Virus record (IMG/VR): IMGVR_UViG_3300024520_000292 | Coordinates: 1-33,896 of that record | Reading direction: 5' to 3' (one strand) | DNA from: a virus | Length of the DNA stretch: 33,896 nucleotides | Shown: piece by piece, positions 7,713 through 33,319 of the stretch | How the letters are laid out: every line of letters begins with the position of its first letter | How positions within the stretch are numbered: the stretch's first letter is position 1 | The notes under the pieces: generated by a model | The model's database searches: none | What the model was told of the DNA's origin: nothing | What the model saw: only the letters and a program-made list of their open reading frames with translations | Program-made: the position numbers and the translations under genes

Positions 7713-8003
7713 TCAAGTGTTTAGAAACTCTAAAAAGTACTTTTCCACAAGGTAATGAAAGTAATGATAGGTATTAACTATTAAGGGAAGTGAAACAACT
7801 TCTCCTCCCTCATAGAAAATAGTGATACAACCGTGTTCAGTTGATACACTAGCTACTCTTCCATAGAACCTATTAACTCTGGAGCCTTGTATTCTTTTTT
7901 CAAATTTTAATTCCTCATGTGTGAGGTTAGGGGGCCGAAGCCCCCTATCTACCTCATTATCACTTTTTACTTCTTGGCTTTCGTTTCTTCTTTCCTGTTC
8001 CAT
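7713..8003 (-). CDS. Unrecognised small protein downstream of rIIB
   Basis: From the ATG at 8003 the product has 96 residues; a TTG at 8033 would add ten. Both starts lie inside the end of the rIIB-like gene, and neither has a strong ribosome site, so the start is uncertain. The N-terminal third is charged (EQERRNE...). The last 55 residues alternate in a beta pattern, RFYGRVASVS...CITIFYEGGEVVSLPLIV, then end in an aromatic helix (YHYFHYLVEKYFLEF). The latter part looks like a genuine small fold. A very stable UUCG hairpin (7928-7947) falls within its coding region. It is the last gene before the terminator. Confidence 0.5.
   Translation of the reverse strand: MEQERRNESQEVKSDNEVDRGLRPPNLTHEELKFEKRIQGSRVNRFYGRVASVSTEHGCITIFYEGGEVVSLPLIVNTYHYFHYLVEKYFLEFLNT
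7928..7947 (-). other. cUUCGg tetraloop hairpin after rIIB
   Basis: On the minus strand TAGGGGGC and GCCCCCTA form a perfect 8-bp stem closed by the ultra-stable C(UUCG)G loop, 12 bases after the stop of the rIIB-like gene. No U-tract follows, so it is more likely an mRNA-stabilising or pausing element than a full terminator. Similar CUUCGG hairpins are well known in T4 intergenic mRNA. Confidence 0.7.
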
Positions 8004-9141
8004 ATAGATCAATGACCCTTGGTGAAACTTCAACAGAAACCTGTCCAGTATTAAGAGTGAGTAGCTTTATAGTATCTCTCTCGTAATCTCTGAAGTTCTC
8101 TTCAAAGTACTCTGTTTCAAGTTCATCCCAATGTCCAGTACTATCTCTACTCATTATAGCATAGGGGAAGTACTCACAAACCCTGATCTTTGAATTGTCA
8201 TAGAAAGGAAGAGCTACAACATTCATTGGACTTACAAGAGTAGCTAGAACAGTATCACTTGGACTTGCAAATTCTTGAACATATGCTTCAGAACCTACAT
8301 GGAGACCATAAGAACAAGCACTATTAATATTAGGATCACATTTCTCTCTTGACATAGAAACAGGAGTACCAAGATAGATATTCATCTTCTTTGAATGCTT
8401 ATCTGTATAAAGAGTTTTACTCTCTCTTGCAATCTCATCCAACTTACCAAAGAGATAGTCTAGATTTCCAGACTTTGTTTTACCTTCACCAGTAGGAAGA
8501 TTCTTTGCTTGTGTATGATGTAATTCGTAATAATCCTCACCATTCTCTTGTATGAGATACACATCATACCACTTCTTCGCTTTCTTACTTCTCTTCACCT
8601 TCAATACAGCTTCTGCTACAAAGTCAGCAAGGTCTGTACGATACTTGGCCTTTCTCTTATGAGTAACTGTCTTATATAATACAGCATAACCACCATCGGT
8701 AATAGTTACGTTGTACTTATCACAGTACTCATAGAACCTATCTCTGGCTACGGCACTGGGATTAAGGAGACAAAGAGACCAAAAGTTTGCAAGAGCCGAT
8801 AGAGGATAACCTTTCTCTGCAAAGTGCTTCACCTTTCTCACCATTACAGGAGGAAGCGGAATATTCGTTCCTTTCAAACAAATTTGATCATCTATCACTT
8901 CAAATTCATCTGAAGAGAAAGCGACCTCTATAGCCTTTTCCATAGCTTTTAACTCAGGAGCAAGAAGACCCATGAGAAAATCAAGTGCTGCCCGACTCCT
9001 CTTTGCTCGAAAACTCTGAGCAGCAGCATATATCTCTCCATTTGGATCTTTCTCCCGATAGTGTTTGGAACCAATAATCATGGTAGTGATTCCTTTCTCT
9101 ACGTTTCTACTTACCAAGCACTTTTGCTTTAGTTCTGACAT
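7960..9141 (-). CDS. rIIB-like protein
   Basis: The 393-residue product directly follows an rIIA-like gene, the order seen in T4-type and many other phages. The pattern around residues 97-160 (PLPPVMVRKVKHFAEKGYPL..L.NFW..L..NPS..A...Y.Y) followed by GGYAVLYKTV matches proteins annotated as rIIB-like in diverse phages. It is longer than T4 rIIB (312 residues). The C-terminus is very basic (GKKKRKPRSKK). In T4, rIIA and rIIB are membrane-associated and protect against lambda Rex exclusion; the role here is inferred. Two starts are possible: ATG 9141 (AGAGG ten bases upstream, overlapping rIIA by 35 bases) and ATG 9081 (GAAAGGA nine bases upstream, clear of rIIA). The latter is at least as likely. 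Confidence 0.68.
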   Translation of the reverse strand: MSELKQKCLVSRNVEKGITTMIIGSKHYREKDPNGEIYAAAQSFRAKRSRAALDFLMGLLAPELKAMEKAIEVAFSSDEFEVIDDQICLKGTNIPLPPVMVRKVKHFAEKGYPLSALANFWSLCLLNPSAVARDRFYEYCDKYNVTITDGGYAVLYKTVTHKRKAKYRTDLADFVAEAVLKVKRSKKAKKWYDVYLIQENGEDYYELHHTQAKNLPTGEGKTKSGNLDYLFGKLDEIARESKTLYTDKHSKKMNIYLGTPVSMSREKCDPNINSACSYGLHVGSEAYVQEFASPSDTVLATLVSPMNVVALPFYDNSKIRVCEYFPYAIMSRDSTGHWDELETEYFEENFRDYERDTIKLLTLNTGQVSVEVSPRVIDLYGTGKKKRKPRSKK

Positions 9142-11575
9142 GTGCTTTAAACCTCTTTAGTAATCTAGAGTTAATTGGAGATAAACTCCCGAAATAGTTC
9201 TCAAGAACCTCACTGGGTATTACATCAAAATCTAACCAAGGTAGTAGAGAATACTTATCTAGATGAGAAGATACTTCCTGTGCTAGTTCTATGATAGCGT
9301 AGTCATATGCTGGTTCAAGTCTAGGCATAGGTTTATTAAACCTCTTAGCTCTAGCTATCATCTTTCTTCTCTTTCTTTCATAATCATTGAAGAACTCTAC
9401 TAACTCTTCGTTGACTTTTATAGCACCTCTTGGATTAGATGTATTACTTTGTATATAGCTATGGAGTCTGTTAATAATAATATATAGACTCGGATTCACC
9501 TTCATAAGATTAGGGTGAAGAAGTCTTGCAAGTTGAGGACCCATGATAATGTTAAGTCTATGAGCAGTCATAGATCTTCGTATTATAGATGCACCTCTTG
9601 TTAAGGATAAAAAGTCATTCACATGTATTGTATTTTCTAATTGTTCCATTACGTGGGTATTACCTACAGCTATCTTATAGATAGAGATCTTTTTTGCATC
9701 TAATACATGATTATAATGGGAATGATGAAGATTCTTCTGATGAAAGATGATAGAAGCAGCAGCAAATAACATAGGTTCATCTGACTGATAACCATAGATA
9801 ATCAAACTACTCGATCTCCCTTTCTGTACAGTATTAATCCAATAATTGATCTCAAACCTATCCATAGACCATTTAAGAGGAGCCTGTCCCATACGTACAT
9901 TATATCTGTCATTCTGATAGATATCCTTTATGGTAATACTACCCTTCCTTTGCGTTCTTAACGCCTTACTCTCCTTCTTTTCCTCTTCAACCCAGAGAAG
10001 ATCTACTGTTTGATCTTCATACATTGTAAGTCTATCAGTAACTATACTCTCTACAGACTTAGCAAAAGCCCTTATTTCCAATAGTTGAGCATCTGTCATC
10101 TCATCTTGGCTACCAAGTCCAAAATAATTCAACAATACTCCATTGGTCTTTATAGCTTCATCTTGAAAATCAAAAATAAGTCTTGTAGATACAAGAAGGC
10201 AATTATTAAGTCTAGCAAGATATCTATTCTTTTGACCAGAAAGAAGAGTTTCAGGTTTACACCTATAATATGGCCTAAACCATGTACTCTCCCCCATGAT
10301 ATATCTCTTCAACTGTAGATCTCTCTGTTGAAGTTTTCTCTTTCCTGCGGGTCCTAACTTGGCTTTGAGTTTAAAGAATAAATCAAAAGGATTATCAGGA
10401 ATCTTCTTAAGATTATCATAACCTGCTAATTTAATCTTCTCTACAGTAACTAAGTCATCTAAACCAGCTACAGAAACACCGGGATATATTTGAACCTTTC
10501 TTGTATCCTGATGAATAGCATCATAATACTCAAGAAGATCTTGTATTGGTTCATCTGCTTCATTAACTAGATCAGTTAGTTCCTCTTTAGCAAGATCATA
10601 CTTATCTCGTATACATTGTACAGTATCGAAGTCATACGTAAGATCTTCTCTGGTCTTCATTATAGTAAGCTTCTCAACTTCATCCATAGAGAAGAGAAGA
10701 CCTATAGGACAATTACGACCAGATTGATAAGCCCAATTCATGGTATAGAATGATATAGGATAATAAACATTTCCTAGACAGAGGTGCATCTCCGTAAAAG
10801 GAGTATTACTTCTGTATATAAAATGTTCTCCCCTATATATCTCATAGTCTCCTTCAAGACCACAATTGATGAATCTAAGATCGTCAAAGTATGCTAACTG
10901 TTCACTTATTGCTTTCTGAAAAGCACCCAAATCACCATCCTTGATAGAAACCATCACTACAGTATTGTTCTCCTCATCTGTATCTGTAACAGAATACAGA
11001 TCAAAGTCAGGAGAACTCTCTGTAGCTCTTATTATGTACTCATATCTCTTACCATTAAATACAGTGTCTACACTAAATATTTCGATATAACCAAGTGGAG
11101 ATTTTGCACCAAGACCCCAAGCACCCATCTGAGTGTTGGTCATCCTCTTAGTAGAAGCAAAGTAGTTTGAATATACATTTTCAGCTCGACTAGGAGATAT
11201 ACCTACCCCCCAATCTCTGAATACTATAGTAGGATGGGAATCTAGAGAACTTAATCCTTCAAGTCTGACTTCAACTGGCTTATCCTGCTTCTTCTGAAAG
11301 TATGTCTTAAGCTTCATTATAGAAGCATCAGATAACTTTTCAAGATTTGGATACCAACTTCTAAGTTGTTCTACAGTACCAGTTTTATAATCCCACATCT
11401 CCTTACGAGAATCAGCACAATTAGTCGTTACTTCTCTTACAATACTACCAATAGGATCTTTATATTGACTGAAGAACTCAACAGCCAACTTCATACTTTG
11501 AGGATCTAATTCAAACTTCTTTGTCTTTATTGCATCTCCACTAAAATCATGTGATGTATACTGCTTTATCCTCAT
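9107..11575 (-). CDS. rIIA-like protein with GHKL ATPase domain
   Basis: The 822-residue protein begins with a GHKL (histidine-kinase/Hsp90/MutL-type) ATP-binding domain. The N-box helix is REVTTNCADS (about residues 47-56). The G1 box is DWGVG (121-125), and a glycine-rich lid GAWGLGAKSPLGY (151-163) follows. This domain at the front of a long protein, next to an rIIB-like gene, identifies the rIIA family. T4 rIIA is 725 residues. The remaining 600 residues are charged and partly helical and are not recognised. The start overlaps the stop of the M15 peptidase gene by four bases (ATGA). Family knowledge links rIIA to phage-exclusion resistance; ATPase activity here is inferred from the intact motifs. 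Confidence 0.78.
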   Translation of the reverse strand: MRIKQYTSHDFSGDAIKTKKFELDPQSMKLAVEFFSQYKDPIGSIVREVTTNCADSRKEMWDYKTGTVEQLRSWYPNLEKLSDASIMKLKTYFQKKQDKPVEVRLEGLSSLDSHPTIVFRDWGVGISPSRAENVYSNYFASTKRMTNTQMGAWGLGAKSPLGYIEIFSVDTVFNGKRYEYIIRATESSPDFDLYSVTDTDEENNTVVMVSIKDGDLGAFQKAISEQLAYFDDLRFINCGLEGDYEIYRGEHFIYRSNTPFTEMHLCLGNVYYPISFYTMNWAYQSGRNCPIGLLFSMDEVEKLTIMKTREDLTYDFDTVQCIRDKYDLAKEELTDLVNEADEPIQDLLEYYDAIHQDTRKVQIYPGVSVAGLDDLVTVEKIKLAGYDNLKKIPDNPFDLFFKLKAKLGPAGKRKLQQRDLQLKRYIMGESTWFRPYYRCKPETLLSGQKNRYLARLNNCLLVSTRLIFDFQDEAIKTNGVLLNYFGLGSQDEMTDAQLLEIRAFAKSVESIVTDRLTMYEDQTVDLLWVEEEKKESKALRTQRKGSITIKDIYQNDRYNVRMGQAPLKWSMDRFEINYWINTVQKGRSSSLIIYGYQSDEPMLFAAASIIFHQKNLHHSHYNHVLDAKKISIYKIAVGNTHVMEQLENTIHVNDFLSLTRGASIIRRSMTAHRLNIIMGPQLARLLHPNLMKVNPSLYIIINRLHSYIQSNTSNPRGAIKVNEELVEFFNDYERKRRKMIARAKRFNKPMPRLEPAYDYAIIELAQEVSSHLDKYSLLPWLDFDVIPSEVLENYFGSLSPINSRLLKRFKAHVRTKAKVLGK

Positions 11576-28358: not shown

Positions 28359-28374
28359 TTTCTACTATGTTTAG

Positions 28375-28448
28375 TGGACCCGACAGGATTTGAACCTGTG
28401 ACCGTTTGATTATGAGTCAAGTGCTCTAACCAACTGAGCTACGGGTCC
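28375..28448 (-). tRNA. tRNA with CAU anticodon (elongator Met, or Ile2)
   Basis: A full cloverleaf is visible on the minus strand. The acceptor is GGACCCG/CGGGTCC, the D-arm GCTC/GAGC with AGTTGGTTA loop, the anticodon loop CTCATAA, and the T-arm ACAGG-TTCAAAT-CCTGT with discriminator A. The anticodon stem has one C-A mismatch at its top pair (27-43). The first pair is G-C, which argues against initiator tRNA. A CAU anticodon means elongator Met, or Ile if the C is modified to lysidine. CCA is not encoded. It sits between two small genes with only a few spacer bases, so it is processed from their transcript. Confidence 0.95.
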
Positions 28449-28451
28449 TAC

Positions 28452-28817
28452 CTATGAATCTGCATCTGTCCAATAAAGTCCACATTTACTACAAGTAGAA
28501 ACTACAACTTCATTTTCATATCCCTTCGTATGTGGACTATCCTTCTCATAATGATGTACATGATTTACATTCTCCTCAGTACCACACCTCCAACAAACAC
28601 CTTGAAGTTGTAATAATTTTCTAAGTCTTTTTAATTCTCTTTGAAAAACAGATACTATATGGACTTCTCCAGTAGTTGCATAATTAGGAAAGGTATCATC
28701 ATAGATCTTTAAAATCTCTCTGAAGTTTTTCTGATTTGTTTTAATTAACTTTTCTAGTCTCTCCTTTTCCCATTTCGGAAGCTTTACATAAACTGTTGTG
28801 TCTTTTTCTTCACTCAT
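28452..28817 (-). CDS. Small Cys/His zinc-binding protein (HNH-like spacing)
   Basis: The ATG at 28817 is chosen because it overlaps the previous stop in the 8-base ATGAGTGA arrangement seen repeatedly here; a GTG at 28856 would add 13 residues. The product begins with helices (KLPKWEKERLEKLIKTNQKN). It ends with a Cys/His domain: CWRCG, then HVHHYEKD, then N.VVVSTCSKCG. The spacing C..C - HHY - C..C resembles zinc-bound HNH folds, but the catalytic arrangement is incomplete, so I would not call it a nuclease. Confidence 0.55.
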   Translation of the reverse strand: MSEEKDTTVYVKLPKWEKERLEKLIKTNQKNFREILKIYDDTFPNYATTGEVHIVSVFQRELKRLRKLLQLQGVCWRCGTEENVNHVHHYEKDSPHTKGYENEVVVSTCSKCGLYWTDADS

Positions 28818-29016
28818 CTTTAATTCGATATAAGAATGTAACTGTACAACCTTCACTTACATGATTAATTCTATCACTACCTATGTCTTTAAAGATCCAT
28901 GAGTCACCAGTGGCACAGGGAATATGTAAAACCTCTGCCTCCTTACAAAGCGTATGTTGACTACCATGAAAATTCACTGCTACCACATCACCTTCTTTTA
29001 TTCCATCACTACACAT
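28810..29016 (-). CDS. Small conserved-looking phage protein
   Basis: The 68-residue product reads GIKEGDVVAVNFHGSQHTLC, then EVLHIPCATGDSWIF, then SEGCTVTFLYRI. It is a compact beta-barrel-like sequence that I recall as widespread among phage hypothetical proteins without a known role. Three Cys are spread across it. It starts at an ATG preceded by AACCAAACTCAAAG, one of the repeated 14-base boxes, and overlaps the upstream gene by eight bases. Confidence 0.6.
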   Translation of the reverse strand: MCSDGIKEGDVVAVNFHGSQHTLCKEAEVLHIPCATGDSWIFKDIGSDRINHVSEGCTVTFLYRIKDE

Positions 29017-29449
29017 CTTTGAGTTTGGTTAGAAGATATTCGACAAGTTCTTTTGGACCGAACATTACATCGACACCGTTATCCAGCCCAATCATTTCCT
29101 GTGCCTCACGTATGTCGGCTTTCATTTGTTCATTCTCGGTTTGTAGTCGTTCTCGGTCTTCGCAACAATCAGTTGCGACTATCGTCCAATCACGTTCTGC
29201 CTTTCTTGCACGGTCAACTTCAGTCCGCAGGCGTTCGATCTTAGCATTCCTAACTTCTATCATGTCGTTCCTGCTTTCTACTGCACCTTTCCATAAAGTC
29301 GCTTCTGCTTCTGCTTCTGCTTCCTCCAGATTGGCCCGTAGGCGGGCGATCTCGGCGCAGTCAAGCGGATCATGGGCTACACGTATTGGATAATCGGGCC
29401 TGTGAAATTTTGTATTCACGCCGCATTTTGGACATGGTAAGTCACTCAT
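29009..29449 (-). CDS. Zinc-ribbon plus coiled-coil protein
   Basis: The 146-residue product opens with a CPKCG knuckle (5-9) and a later DCAEIARLR. It then runs as a long coiled coil (about 32-130), mostly Glu, Ala, Arg and Leu in heptad-like spacing. A perfect hexamer repeat at 29301-29324 encodes the EAEAEA part. Its high G+C contrasts with neighbours and suggests acquisition or duplication. The start overlaps the previous gene by eight bases (ATGAGTGA) and has the AACC box at -14. Role unknown; adaptor or scaffolding would fit. Confidence 0.6.
   Translation of the reverse strand: MSDLPCPKCGVNTKFHRPDYPIRVAHDPLDCAEIARLRANLEEAEAEAEATLWKGAVESRNDMIEVRNAKIERLRTEVDRARKAERDWTIVATDCCEDRERLQTENEQMKADIREAQEMIGLDNGVDVMFGPKELVEYLLTKLKDV
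29017..29030 (-). repeat. AACC start box at 29016
   Basis: AACCAAACTCAAAG directly precedes the ATG of 28810-29016. Its AACC begins at -14. Member of a family of six boxes at 29.0-31.0 kb. Confidence 0.6.
29301..29324. repeat. Hexanucleotide repeat in a coiled-coil gene
   Basis: Three exact copies of gcttct and one gcttcc lie in tandem, encoding alternating Glu and Ala on the minus strand. Being six bases long, length changes would keep the frame and only alter coiled-coil length. Confidence 0.85.
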
Positions 29450-29789
29450 AGCCGGGTCCGGTTATGGGCGTGATTGCTTCGCCGCCCAATTCAATTCGTT
29501 CAGCGTTCCAAGACGTGATCCGGTCTATAACGATCTGAATGTCGCGCTCGGACTTGTAGTTGAATCCGCATAGTTCAAAGACCCGCTGTAGATCGCCCCG
29601 CAGGCGCTCGATCTCGGCGTCTTTTGCGCTGATTTCAGCAACGGCTTCACGTAACCAATCGTGAAGTTCGTCAGGGCTTGCCATGTCAATTTGATCCGGT
29701 ATCTCACTCATCTTCGGGTCTGGTTCGTCATCACCCGGAGACCATTGTTGTTGTTCCTCTGCTGTTGGTGGTTCATTATATCTTGGCAT
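29442..29789 (-). CDS. G+C-rich coiled-coil protein
   Basis: The 115-residue product has a proline/acid-rich N-terminus and then a coiled-coil stretch (about 45-75, EAVAEISAKDAEIERLRGDL), with a C-terminal mixed region. The AEIERLR phrase resembles the AEIARLR and AKIERLR phrases of the downstream gene 29009-29449. An internal ATG at 29711 (residue 27) carries the same 14-base box as the outer start, so two start points, or a fusion of a short leader ORF to an older gene, are plausible. G+C is high. Ends GPGYE with stop overlapping the next ATG. Confidence 0.55.
   Translation of the reverse strand: MPRYNEPPTAEEQQQWSPGDDEPDPKMSEIPDQIDMASPDELHDWLREAVAEISAKDAEIERLRGDLQRVFELCGFNYKSERDIQIVIDRITSWNAERIELGGEAITPITGPGYE
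29450..29463 (-). repeat. AACC start box at 29449
   Basis: AACCGGACCCGGCT directly precedes the ATG of 29009-29449; AACC begins at -14. It also codes for the C-terminus of the upstream gene (TGPGYE). Confidence 0.65.
29712..29725 (-). repeat. AACC start box at internal ATG 29711
   Basis: AACCAGACCCGAAG directly precedes an in-frame internal ATGAGTGAG of gene 29442-29789. It shares ten of 14 bases with the box at 29450-29463. Confidence 0.65.
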
Positions 29790-29803
29790 CGTCGGGTCTA
29801 GTT
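29790..29803 (-). repeat. AACT start box at 29789
   Basis: AACTAGACCCGACG directly precedes the ATG of 29442-29789. No Shine-Dalgarno sequence is present, as with the other boxes. Confidence 0.65.
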
Positions 29804-29813
29804 GAGGGTTAAT

Positions 29814-30035
29814 CTATTCATGAAGTAGTCTCACTTCTTCTACATTCGCAAACGGAATATATCCTGTTGATCTATCGGTATAATCAACTCGCACAGCATC
29901 CATATATCCAGCAGAACCAGCAATCAAGCAGGTTTCCATTTTCTCCACTCCATTCCGTCCCTCAAATATCGTGTATTGATTCGCATTGATTCGTATAACA
30001 TGTAAACCGGGAGTAATCTTTTTTTCGTTACTCAT
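29814..30035 (-). CDS. Small protein of unknown function
   Basis: The 73-residue product begins MSNEKKITPGLHVIRINANQ and continues in a mainly beta pattern (YTIFEGRNGVEKMETCLIAG, AVRVDYTDRSTGYIPFANVEEVRL). This suggests a small barrel of the kind found in many phage accessory proteins. The ATG has the repeated AACC box at -14. No family recognised. Confidence 0.55.
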   Translation of the reverse strand: MSNEKKITPGLHVIRINANQYTIFEGRNGVEKMETCLIAGSAGYMDAVRVDYTDRSTGYIPFANVEEVRLLHE

Positions 30036-30049
30036 CGTCTAATCTGGTT
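30036..30049 (-). repeat. AACC start box at 30035
   Basis: AACCAGATTAGACG directly precedes the ATGAGT start of 29814-30035. The TAG inside it is the stop of the upstream gene. Confidence 0.65.
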
Positions 30050-30275
30050 GTGAGTCACGTATCCTGTTGTATTCTTTCCTCATAAACTTCCTTTCTTCCT
30101 TGGAAAACCTCTTTCGATATCTTTTCCCCTGATCTATAAATGCAGGAATACTACTTATTCCATACCAATACAATACCTCTCGCATCCATTCTAATAGATC
30201 ATTTTGTCTATCTGTAGACAGTTTACTCTTCTTCTTCGAAGATAAATATGATTTTAGACTCATCATTAAGTCCAA
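30039..30275 (-). CDS. Small basic helical protein
   Basis: The 78-residue protein is very basic (KSYLSSKKKSKL ... KRYRKRFSKEERKFMRKEYNRIRDS) and helical, with a Trp-rich middle (DLLEWMREVLYWYGI). An ATG at 30263 is an alternative start. It overlaps the preceding secreted-type protein gene by up to 53 bases. Nucleic-acid binding would fit the charge. Unknown role. Confidence 0.5.
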   Translation of the reverse strand: MDLMMSLKSYLSSKKKSKLSTDRQNDLLEWMREVLYWYGISSIPAFIDQGKRYRKRFSKEERKFMRKEYNRIRDSQPD

Positions 30276-30462
30276 TTAATGGATTATTACAGGCCACACC
30301 CACACAACAGTCTGTACTCCAAGCAGGACAGTCATCATCTTCACCACATCCGGGAAGAGCTAGAGAGATAACTGATGCTGGTACACCGGGATCTTGAGTT
30401 TCAGTAGGTGTAATCCCTACTGAGAGTAGTGCGATAAAACAGATGGCGATGAATTGTTTCAT
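30223..30462 (-). CDS. Small exported Cys-rich protein
   Basis: The 79-residue product has a clear signal peptide: a short Lys start, the hydrophobic core FIAICFIALLSVGI (4-17) and then polar TPTETQ. The mature part has five Cys (GCGEDDDC, TDCC, ACNN), which suggests disulfides and hence a periplasmic or surface location. Its start shares a base with the stop of 30462-30965 (TAATG), so the two are probably expressed as a pair. Possible role in superinfection exclusion or cell-surface interference, by position only. Confidence 0.55.
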   Translation of the reverse strand: MKQFIAICFIALLSVGITPTETQDPGVPASVISLALPGCGEDDDCPAWSTDCCVGVACNNPLIGLNDESKIIFIFEEEE

Positions 30463-30965
30463 TAGTACGTTTGTTTAGGTTGCAGGAGTGTATAGTTAAC
30501 ACGCCCACCTGATAGAAGATATAGACGTGTGGGTAAATATTGTTCGTCATTTGTTGAACCAATCAGAATCACACGTTGGCATCCACCAGCAGGTGGAGCT
30601 ACAGTTTGCTTGCACCATCCCCATTGATAGAAACATGTTGGACGTGAAGCCCATGTAACAATTGCATTTGACTTCCACCAAATACGTACTGGTGGATTGG
30701 TCGATTCAGTCTTACTCATTGATATTGGATCAACTGTCGGAGGATCACATACCGAGAAGTGAATTTCCCCATTGTCCTTAACATACAGGAAACTCAGGTA
30801 CGGATGTCCATTACCAATCTTCCCAAGTGCATCTTCAGGTTCGATAGAAGTGATTGGAGTAGACTCAAACTCTGTTGAATCACAAGCAAGACTAACAAGA
30901 ACTATCCATATACCTGCTACCATAAGAGCTAACCAGATCATACGACCGATAGTTTTCTCACTCAT
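30462..30965 (-). CDS. Membrane-anchored or lipoprotein-like protein
   Basis: The 167-residue protein starts with a basic segment and one hydrophobic stretch (MIWLALMVAGIWIVLVSLAC, about 9-28), followed by the exported-looking Cys/Trp-rich domain (WKSNAIVTWASRPTCFYQWGWC). The Cys at 28 is in a loose lipobox context, SLAC; the -3 residue is Ser rather than Leu, so lipidation is uncertain. The AACC box precedes the ATG, and the gene overlaps the upstream gene by eight bases. Together with 30223-30462 it forms an exported pair. Confidence 0.55.
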   Translation of the reverse strand: MSEKTIGRMIWLALMVAGIWIVLVSLACDSTEFESTPITSIEPEDALGKIGNGHPYLSFLYVKDNGEIHFSVCDPPTVDPISMSKTESTNPPVRIWWKSNAIVTWASRPTCFYQWGWCKQTVAPPAGGCQRVILIGSTNDEQYLPTRLYLLSGGRVNYTLLQPKQTY

Positions 30966-31146
30966 CTTTTACTCCGGTTTTAGACTTCACACTTTGTTCA
31001 TCAAGTAAGTCTGCTATTCTTCGCAGATTTGCCGTATAAGTTGATACCCTATCCGTCCCACGATCCATTAGACAATCAGTTGTCATTGACATAACAAGCT
31101 CCAAATGCTTTTGTTGCTTGTTGTCCGGGGTCCATTGTTTACTCAT
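30958..31146 (-). CDS. Small charged protein of unknown function
   Basis: The ATG at 31146 is preferred because it overlaps the upstream stop as ATGAGTAA, the arrangement used by neighbouring genes; an ATG at 31191 would add 15 residues. From 31146 the product has 62 residues (MSKQWTPDNKQQKHLELV...), is helical and Asp/Arg-rich (CLMDRGTDRVSTYTANLRRIADLLDEQ) and ends KTGVKDE. Unknown family. Confidence 0.5.
   Translation of the reverse strand: MSKQWTPDNKQQKHLELVMSMTTDCLMDRGTDRVSTYTANLRRIADLLDEQSVKSKTGVKDE
30966..30979 (-). repeat. AACC start box at 30965
   Basis: AACCGGAGTAAAAG directly precedes the ATGAGTGAG start of 30462-30965 and encodes the C-terminal TGVKDE of the upstream gene. Confidence 0.65.
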
Positions 31147-32535: not shown

Positions 32536-32723
32536 ATTGATTCTCCTCTAGTGTATCTTTTAAACTCATCTCTAAACTCTGATACCTCATTGAACATATT
32601 CTCAATGTAAAGATTGGTTGATTCCAGATATCTCTCAACTCCATAGTCCCTAAAAATCAGATAGAACAGAGTACCTGCTTGTATTACTGCTATGAATCCA
32701 AGAACACCTATAATAATACCCAT
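32532..32723 (-). CDS. Small membrane protein
   Basis: The 63-residue protein begins with one hydrophobic helix, GIIIGVLGFIAVIQAGTLFYL (2-22), followed by an acidic/aromatic amphipathic helix (YGVERYLESTNLYIENMFNE). This resembles a phage holin-like or signal-anchored accessory protein. AGGAGGAG upstream of ATG is a strong ribosome site. Its ATG shares a base with the MazG-like stop region. Confidence 0.6.
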   Translation of the reverse strand: MGIIIGVLGFIAVIQAGTLFYLIFRDYGVERYLESTNLYIENMFNEVSEFRDEFKRYTRGESI

Positions 32724-33319
32724 TAGTCTCCTCCTAATGCTTTCTTTTCTTCATCCAAATCTCTATTCAGTGCATCTAATGATGTAAACTTCTGAGGATA
32801 TCTTATCTTAAGCTTGTGTATATTCTTCTTCCTCACAACTCCAATATTTATATTAAACATAGAGCACAATTCAGACAACTCCTCAGTAAAAAGGACTACA
32901 AGATTATAAAACTCATCAGACTTAAAACTCGGACTACCATAAAAGAGACGTTTTTTCACTGCATCTAAAAGATCTGTTGCTCTTCTATGTAAAGGACCTA
33001 CAGTCCATGCAAGATGCTCTGCACGAAACATGGATAGGTGTCTCCTGATATCTTTTATCCCTGATTCTCTGATGATCTCCACATTCATAGGGATTCCTGA
33101 TGTGTAGTCAAGAACTGCACAATACCAGAAAATATCACCTATTTCCTCACGTACATTACGCATATCATCTTGTATTACAGCACCACTCAACTCTCCAATC
33201 TCAGTATTAATACCAATGACAGCGTGGATTATATCCCACTCTATCTGATCCGGTGTTACAATTGCTTCACTTGAAGCTAAAGTTCTCAAAGCTAGAGATA
33301 TGTACTCTTTTCTTATCAT
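32723..33319 (-). CDS. MazG-like nucleotide pyrophosphohydrolase
   Basis: In this 198-residue protein, TEIGELSG (39-46) and NVREEIGDIFWYCAVL (55-70) give the metal-binding E-x2-E ... E-x2-D pattern of the MazG/all-alpha NTP-PPase family (Glu40, Glu43, Glu59, Asp62). A second region (about 140-195, EELSELCSM and KLKIRYPQKFTSLDALNRDLDEE) is the typical phage MazG-like C-terminal motif KL..RYP.kF. Such enzymes hydrolyse nucleoside triphosphates; in phages they may alter dNTP pools or lower alarmone. Overlaps the upstream gene by four bases and the downstream one by one. Confidence 0.75.
   Translation of the reverse strand: MIRKEYISLALRTLASSEAIVTPDQIEWDIIHAVIGINTEIGELSGAVIQDDMRNVREEIGDIFWYCAVLDYTSGIPMNVEIIRESGIKDIRRHLSMFRAEHLAWTVGPLHRRATDLLDAVKKRLFYGSPSFKSDEFYNLVVLFTEELSELCSMFNINIGVVRKKNIHKLKIRYPQKFTSLDALNRDLDEEKKALGGD

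Follow-up and report, generated by a model that had tools for sequence, protein, structure and literature searches.

Results

A cluster of small genes on the minus strand

The window analysed here is a 33,896-nt stretch of DNA, positions 1–33,896 of IMG/VR record IMGVR_UViG_3300024520_000292. It is a single fragment of uncertain completeness, and its gene calls are hand-curated open reading frames. At 28810–31146, on the minus strand, it carries a cluster of small genes in which a 14-nt box, typically beginning AACYRGA, directly precedes several ATG codons. The following genes and similarity islands are considered below (all minus strand).

28810..29016: small ORFan gene with a diverged box copy
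29009..29449: ORFan coiled-coil gene, MSDLP...AEIARLR at residue 32, GC 47%
29442..29789: ORFan coiled-coil gene, GC 52%; read from ATG 29711, MSEIP...AEIERLR at residue 32
29814..30035: small ORFan gene, box at −14
30462..30965: small ORFan gene, box at −14
29328..29357: second similarity island, codons for AEIARLR, in register with 29590–29619 at a spacing of 262
29590..29619: second similarity island, codons for AEIERLR

The closest relatives of the DNA polymerase and primase encoded in the window are found in crAss-like, Flavobacterium and Bacteroides phages and related IMG/VR contigs (27–33% identity), and both genes adjoin RIIA/RIIB-like and exonuclease genes. Judged by these relatives and neighbours, the fragment belongs to an unclassified phage that distantly resembles Crassvirales and probably infects Bacteroidota. 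The RIIB-like and RIIA-like genes are adjacent to each other (7960–11575, minus strand), beside the crAss-like replication genes. Upstream of the polymerase region, a single gene (32723–33319, minus strand) has a relative among the fetched loci, being weakly similar to stretches near 19.2–19.5 kb of related loci L014 and L016. Shortly downstream of the cluster is a tRNA with a CAT anticodon (28374–28448, minus strand; ARAGORN and Rfam).

Homologues of the cassette proteins were found neither in phages (tblastn) nor in IMG/VR or GTDB genomes, collections that may omit records very near the window, and comparison with Pfam and PHROGs gave nothing above noise. Gene 29009–29449 contains a short GAAGCA repeat (encoding EAEAEA; 29296–29323, minus strand) that produces spurious database matches to repeats in Bacteroides and other phages.

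Six box copies at a fixed distance from ATG

The box copies are located as follows (all minus strand).

29017..29030: AACCAAACTCAAAG, before ATG 29016; one mismatch to AACYRGA; within the last codons of gene 29009–29449
29450..29463: AACCGGACCCGGCT, before ATG 29449; within the last codons of gene 29442–29789
29712..29725: AACCAGACCCGAAG, before the in-frame ATG 29711
29790..29803: AACTAGACCCGACG, before ATG 29789; intergenic, in a 24-nt gap
30036..30049: AACCAGATTAGACG, before ATG 30035; runs across the upstream TAG stop
30966..30979: AACCGGAGTAAAAG, before ATG 30965; within the last codons of the upstream gene; holds GGAG

The six 14-mers listed in a preliminary description of this DNA are all present at −14 of their ATG codons on the minus strand. 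Five of them match AACYRGAN7ATG exactly, and the sixth (29016) reads AACCAAA in the same place. As had been reported, GACCCG is seen in three copies and most of the starts (four of six) read ATGAGT. While all six ATGs had been referred to as starts, 29711 is an in-frame ATG within ORF 29442–29789 and not the start of that ORF. Similarly, the six were said to be free of Shine-Dalgarno (SD) sites, which holds for most of them but not for 30965, where an SD-like GGAG lies at −10.

The shared stretch begins sharply at −14 and extends to about +8. Mean pairwise identity over the six copies is 0.13 at −15 and 1.0 at −14, −13, −12 and −8, and it returns to background past about +8. The three closest copies all lie within 350 nt of one another and have CCCG at −7 to −4 in common; the other three (30035, 30965 and 29016) have little in common outside −14 to −8 and the start. 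Box families rank among the top direct-repeat families of the 28.0–33.9 kb region (D1, and also D4, D6 and D7). Where the box overlaps an upstream gene it begins at codon position 2 or 3, and the other copies span a stop codon (one) or an intergenic gap. The box is therefore found in two reading frames and in non-coding sequence, so the encoded amino-acid sequence is an unlikely cause of the shared bases. A link to the 5' end of the tRNA-Met (GGACCCG) was also considered and dropped as a short coincidence.

Start context and stop/start overlaps

Related loci, sampled at 1071 starts, show enrichment of A at −14 to −11 (0.46–0.55), at −6 and at −3, and just 16% of these starts have an SD-like 4-mer. 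The 50 other starts of the window have the same A-rich, SD-poor context in a weaker form, and the published start context of F. johnsoniae is of this A-rich, SD-less Bacteroidota type (PMC6847099). The missing SD site at most of the six starts is thus ordinary for this phage and its relatives.

Stop and start codons overlap by 8 nt at five of the window's 52 junctions, all of them in the cluster 28810–31146 on the minus strand (starts 31146, 30965, 29449, 29016 and 28817; sequences ATGAGTGA, ATGAGTAA and ATGTGTAG). Three of the six box starts have this overlap, and the overlap junctions at 31146 and 28817 are without the box. RNA structure predicted at the starts gave no z-score beyond −1.34, Rfam returned the tRNA only, and no promoter was found near the boxes in a sigma-70-type scan, Bacteroidota promoters being of another type.

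Two GC-rich genes share a second island in register

The starts at 29449 and 29711 are 73% identical over −15 to +14 and 77% identical over +90 to +119, both on one ungapped 262-nt diagonal. This diagonal is the best of about 6000 (0.467, against a mean of 0.251 and sd of 0.036), and both proteins carry AEI(A/E)RLR at residue 32. The alignment of both stretches on a single diagonal suggests that translation does begin at ATG 29711 and that the two genes have a common origin, at least toward their 5' ends. At the protein level, similarity is limited to 10 residues (E 0.046). GC content of the pair is 47% and 52%, compared to 29–42% in the other genes sampled and 38% for the phage; the pair at 29009–29789 may be a foreign cassette, a duplication or an assembly chimera.

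The box is confined to 2 kb

AACYRGA occurs 14 times on the minus strand of the window. Five of these occurrences fall in 29–31 kb, every one at −14 of an ATG (an ORF start in four of the five), compared to none of the nine elsewhere on that strand and none of the 10 on the plus strand. No other gene start of the 33.9-kb fragment has the box, so all copies are confined to 2 kb. Within the cluster, the neighbouring starts 30462, 30263, 28817 and 31146 are without the exact box, with AATTGGA at 30263.

In 87 related-phage loci, 9 of 607 AACYRGA boxes have an ATG at spacing 7, where the average is about 14 per spacing, and there is no enrichment at −14. Fourteen whole related records gave 11 matches compared to 6 for the backward control, again without enrichment. 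A search of IMG/VR with the long form of the box returned 0 matches, as did its backward control, and therefore carries no weight. Enrichment at −14, on which the preliminary description had made its proposal depend, is thus absent outside the cluster, both at the window's gene starts and in related loci. The absence of the box at other starts and of a −14 preference in relatives is evidence against a genome-wide translation signal, which we reject.

Discussion

A proposed re-used gene junction

The six copies share one segment with a sharp left edge and are restricted to one cluster, two of the genes have a second island in register, and the 8-nt overlaps are clustered. The best explanation we can offer, plausible although still short of probable, is that the box copies represent a gene-junction segment copied along with small cassettes and kept as suited to SD-less initiation. 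A single junction segment, about −14 to +8 around the ATG and in several copies including the overlapping stop of the preceding gene (ATGAGTGA), would have been duplicated, or re-used as short homology, while the accessory cluster of a Bacteroidota-type phage acquired, copied and exchanged small ORFan cassettes. What would have allowed the segment to stay, or favoured its retention, is that it can serve as a start in the absence of an SD site: A at −14 and −13 falls where Bacteroidota starts are A-rich, and the overlapping stop and start could allow coupled re-initiation.

Copying would account for the locality of the box, for the way similarity grades among the nearest copies, for the common type of overlap and for the second island. 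Searches of phages, IMG/VR and GTDB genomes returned no relative with a different junction, so the copying itself, like any function, is inferred rather than observed. Several observations weigh against this reading. The cassette genes have no relatives in the collections searched and thus offer no junction before and after an exchange, the protein similarity of the pair spans just those 10 residues, and the three outlying copies have little in common beyond the box core and the start. Two of the overlap junctions also have no box, and placement in two frames and in non-coding sequence is equally explained by a purely functional element.

The preliminary description had offered three readings of the box. 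The seam of shuffled cassettes gains from the in-register GC-rich pair and the clustered 8-nt overlaps, the translation signal does not hold genome-wide, and the operator is left without positive evidence.

Chance and the statistical weight of the pattern

The main rival is chance combined with ascertainment, which we regard as a real possibility: six sites may have been picked for their likeness from many ATGs and windows, aided by the A-rich context at −14 and −13 and by the ATGAGTGA overlaps. As the pattern was chosen after looking, our tests cover every pattern of this form at every offset, so that the post-hoc choice is counted. The corrected p then spans about 0.002 to 0.12 by choice of null, and values from 0.004 to 0.12 leave room for chance. 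Over 55 gene starts no pattern does better than the box, at p about 0.02 under a column-shuffle null (10/500) and about 0.12 under a null of random non-start ATGs (61/500); for the 17 local gene starts, p is about 0.004 (2/500). A search for the reversed pattern (the backward box) gave 0 matches, and a search allowing one mismatch gave 20, compared to 11.2 ± 3.2 in shuffles.

Chance also draws support from the anchor tests. When all ATGs of the region are included, two or three other trinucleotides do as well as ATG when used as the anchor. Anchoring on GAG recovers the same boxes; anchoring on AAG brings up a pattern there that is just as large but unrelated, and a count of 5 is also reached in other 4-kb stretches. 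Under an automatic gene caller, which drops some genes, the window does not stand out among relatives, in which 17 of 117 gene groups match its best score.

Chance does less well with the profiles. A profile built automatically from the tightest triple (29449, 29711 and 29789) ranks 29016 and 30035 first and second of 819 ATGs (null 0/400), a ranking valid only with 29711 counted as a start, since the procedure otherwise picks a different triple. In leave-one-out tests every copy ranks first of 817 by a wide margin, a result that is partly circular as the six were preselected for similarity. The 262-nt register of the second island is independent of the box and speaks against chance as well. 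The six-copy set is therefore probably not pure chance; support is moderate, and a large scan yields some such cases.

A possible signal read by the ribosome or a regulator

It is unlikely, in our view, that the box is a dedicated translation-start element of the cluster, recognised at a fixed 14 nt either by a 30S subunit, initiating or re-initiating, or by a factor of the phage. Such an element would suit the fixed spacing, the left edge falling exactly where the Bacteroidota A-rich motif begins, the persistence of similarity in two reading frames and outside coding sequence, and the 8-nt overlap at half of the six starts. It accounts for the sharp edge and the fixed spacing as well as copying does, but not for the 2-kb restriction: there are just six copies, none at gene starts beyond the 2 kb and none enriched in relatives. 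Nor does it need the CCCG of the three nearest copies, and four starts of the same cluster do without the exact box. A more specific form, in which a Bacteroidota phage carries a cluster-specific AACCRGA at exactly −14 that directs SD-less or coupled re-initiation of accessory genes, unlike the A-rich context of its host, strikes us as rather doubtful.

Least likely, and in our judgement very improbable, is an operator or other DNA-binding site for a phage regulator acting on the cluster: asymmetric, one-directional repeats of short sites do exist in phages (stoperators, PMC3029335), but here the genes overlap as one operon and copies fall within the coding ends of upstream genes, the box lacks palindromic symmetry, an operator would not need a constant spacing to ATG, and a scan for sigma-70-type promoters found no candidate near any copy.

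At present, the box is a local, moderately supported pattern in one fragment. As a re-used junction, it would illustrate how small accessory genes of phages can be shuffled and still be translated in hosts that do without SD sites. Should the ribosome instead respond to it, the box would count as an uncommon case of a sequence-specific start signal, in a group for which little is understood about how starts are chosen.

Comparison with known systems

The start-associated sequence (SAS) of cluster K mycobacteriophages, 5'-GGGATAGGAGCCC, is spread genome-wide and conserved across subclusters, and about half of its copies carry 17-bp inverted repeats (PMC3203893). The parallel drawn in the preliminary description holds for position only, as the box too is a short asymmetric repeat immediately 5' of several starts in one orientation. 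It does not extend to sequence, which is AACYRGA... rather than GGGATAGGAGCCC, or to distribution, which is confined to 2 kb of the fragment with no −14 preference in relatives. On these two counts the box is not a cluster K SAS.

Like the stoperators of cluster A mycobacteriophages, which are 13 bp, mostly intergenic, genome-wide and repressor-bound (PMC3029335), the box consists of multiple short asymmetric sites in one orientation. Most box copies, however, overlap coding ends at a fixed spacing to ATG, and the analysis turned up no repressor.

The SD-less Bacteroidota start context is matched in part. The phage group has the enrichment for A and the scarcity of SD sites, and A at −14 and −13 of the box sits on the A-rich −14 to −11. 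Agreement of the box itself with this context is limited to −14, −13 and, mostly, −3. Its AACCRGA differs from the general motif, which is rich in A; in relatives C is uncommon at −12, and of the 1071 starts in related loci 3 have AACC at −14.

Short conserved boundary sequences at the gene junctions of mosaic phages have also been discussed (PMC3029335). While those are defined by comparing related phages and the box is known here from one fragment, the box has the same arrangement of a shared junction with unrelated flanks: it is a short shared sequence exactly at the junctions of a small-gene cluster whose gene bodies are largely unrelated, with identity at background at −15 and past about +8.
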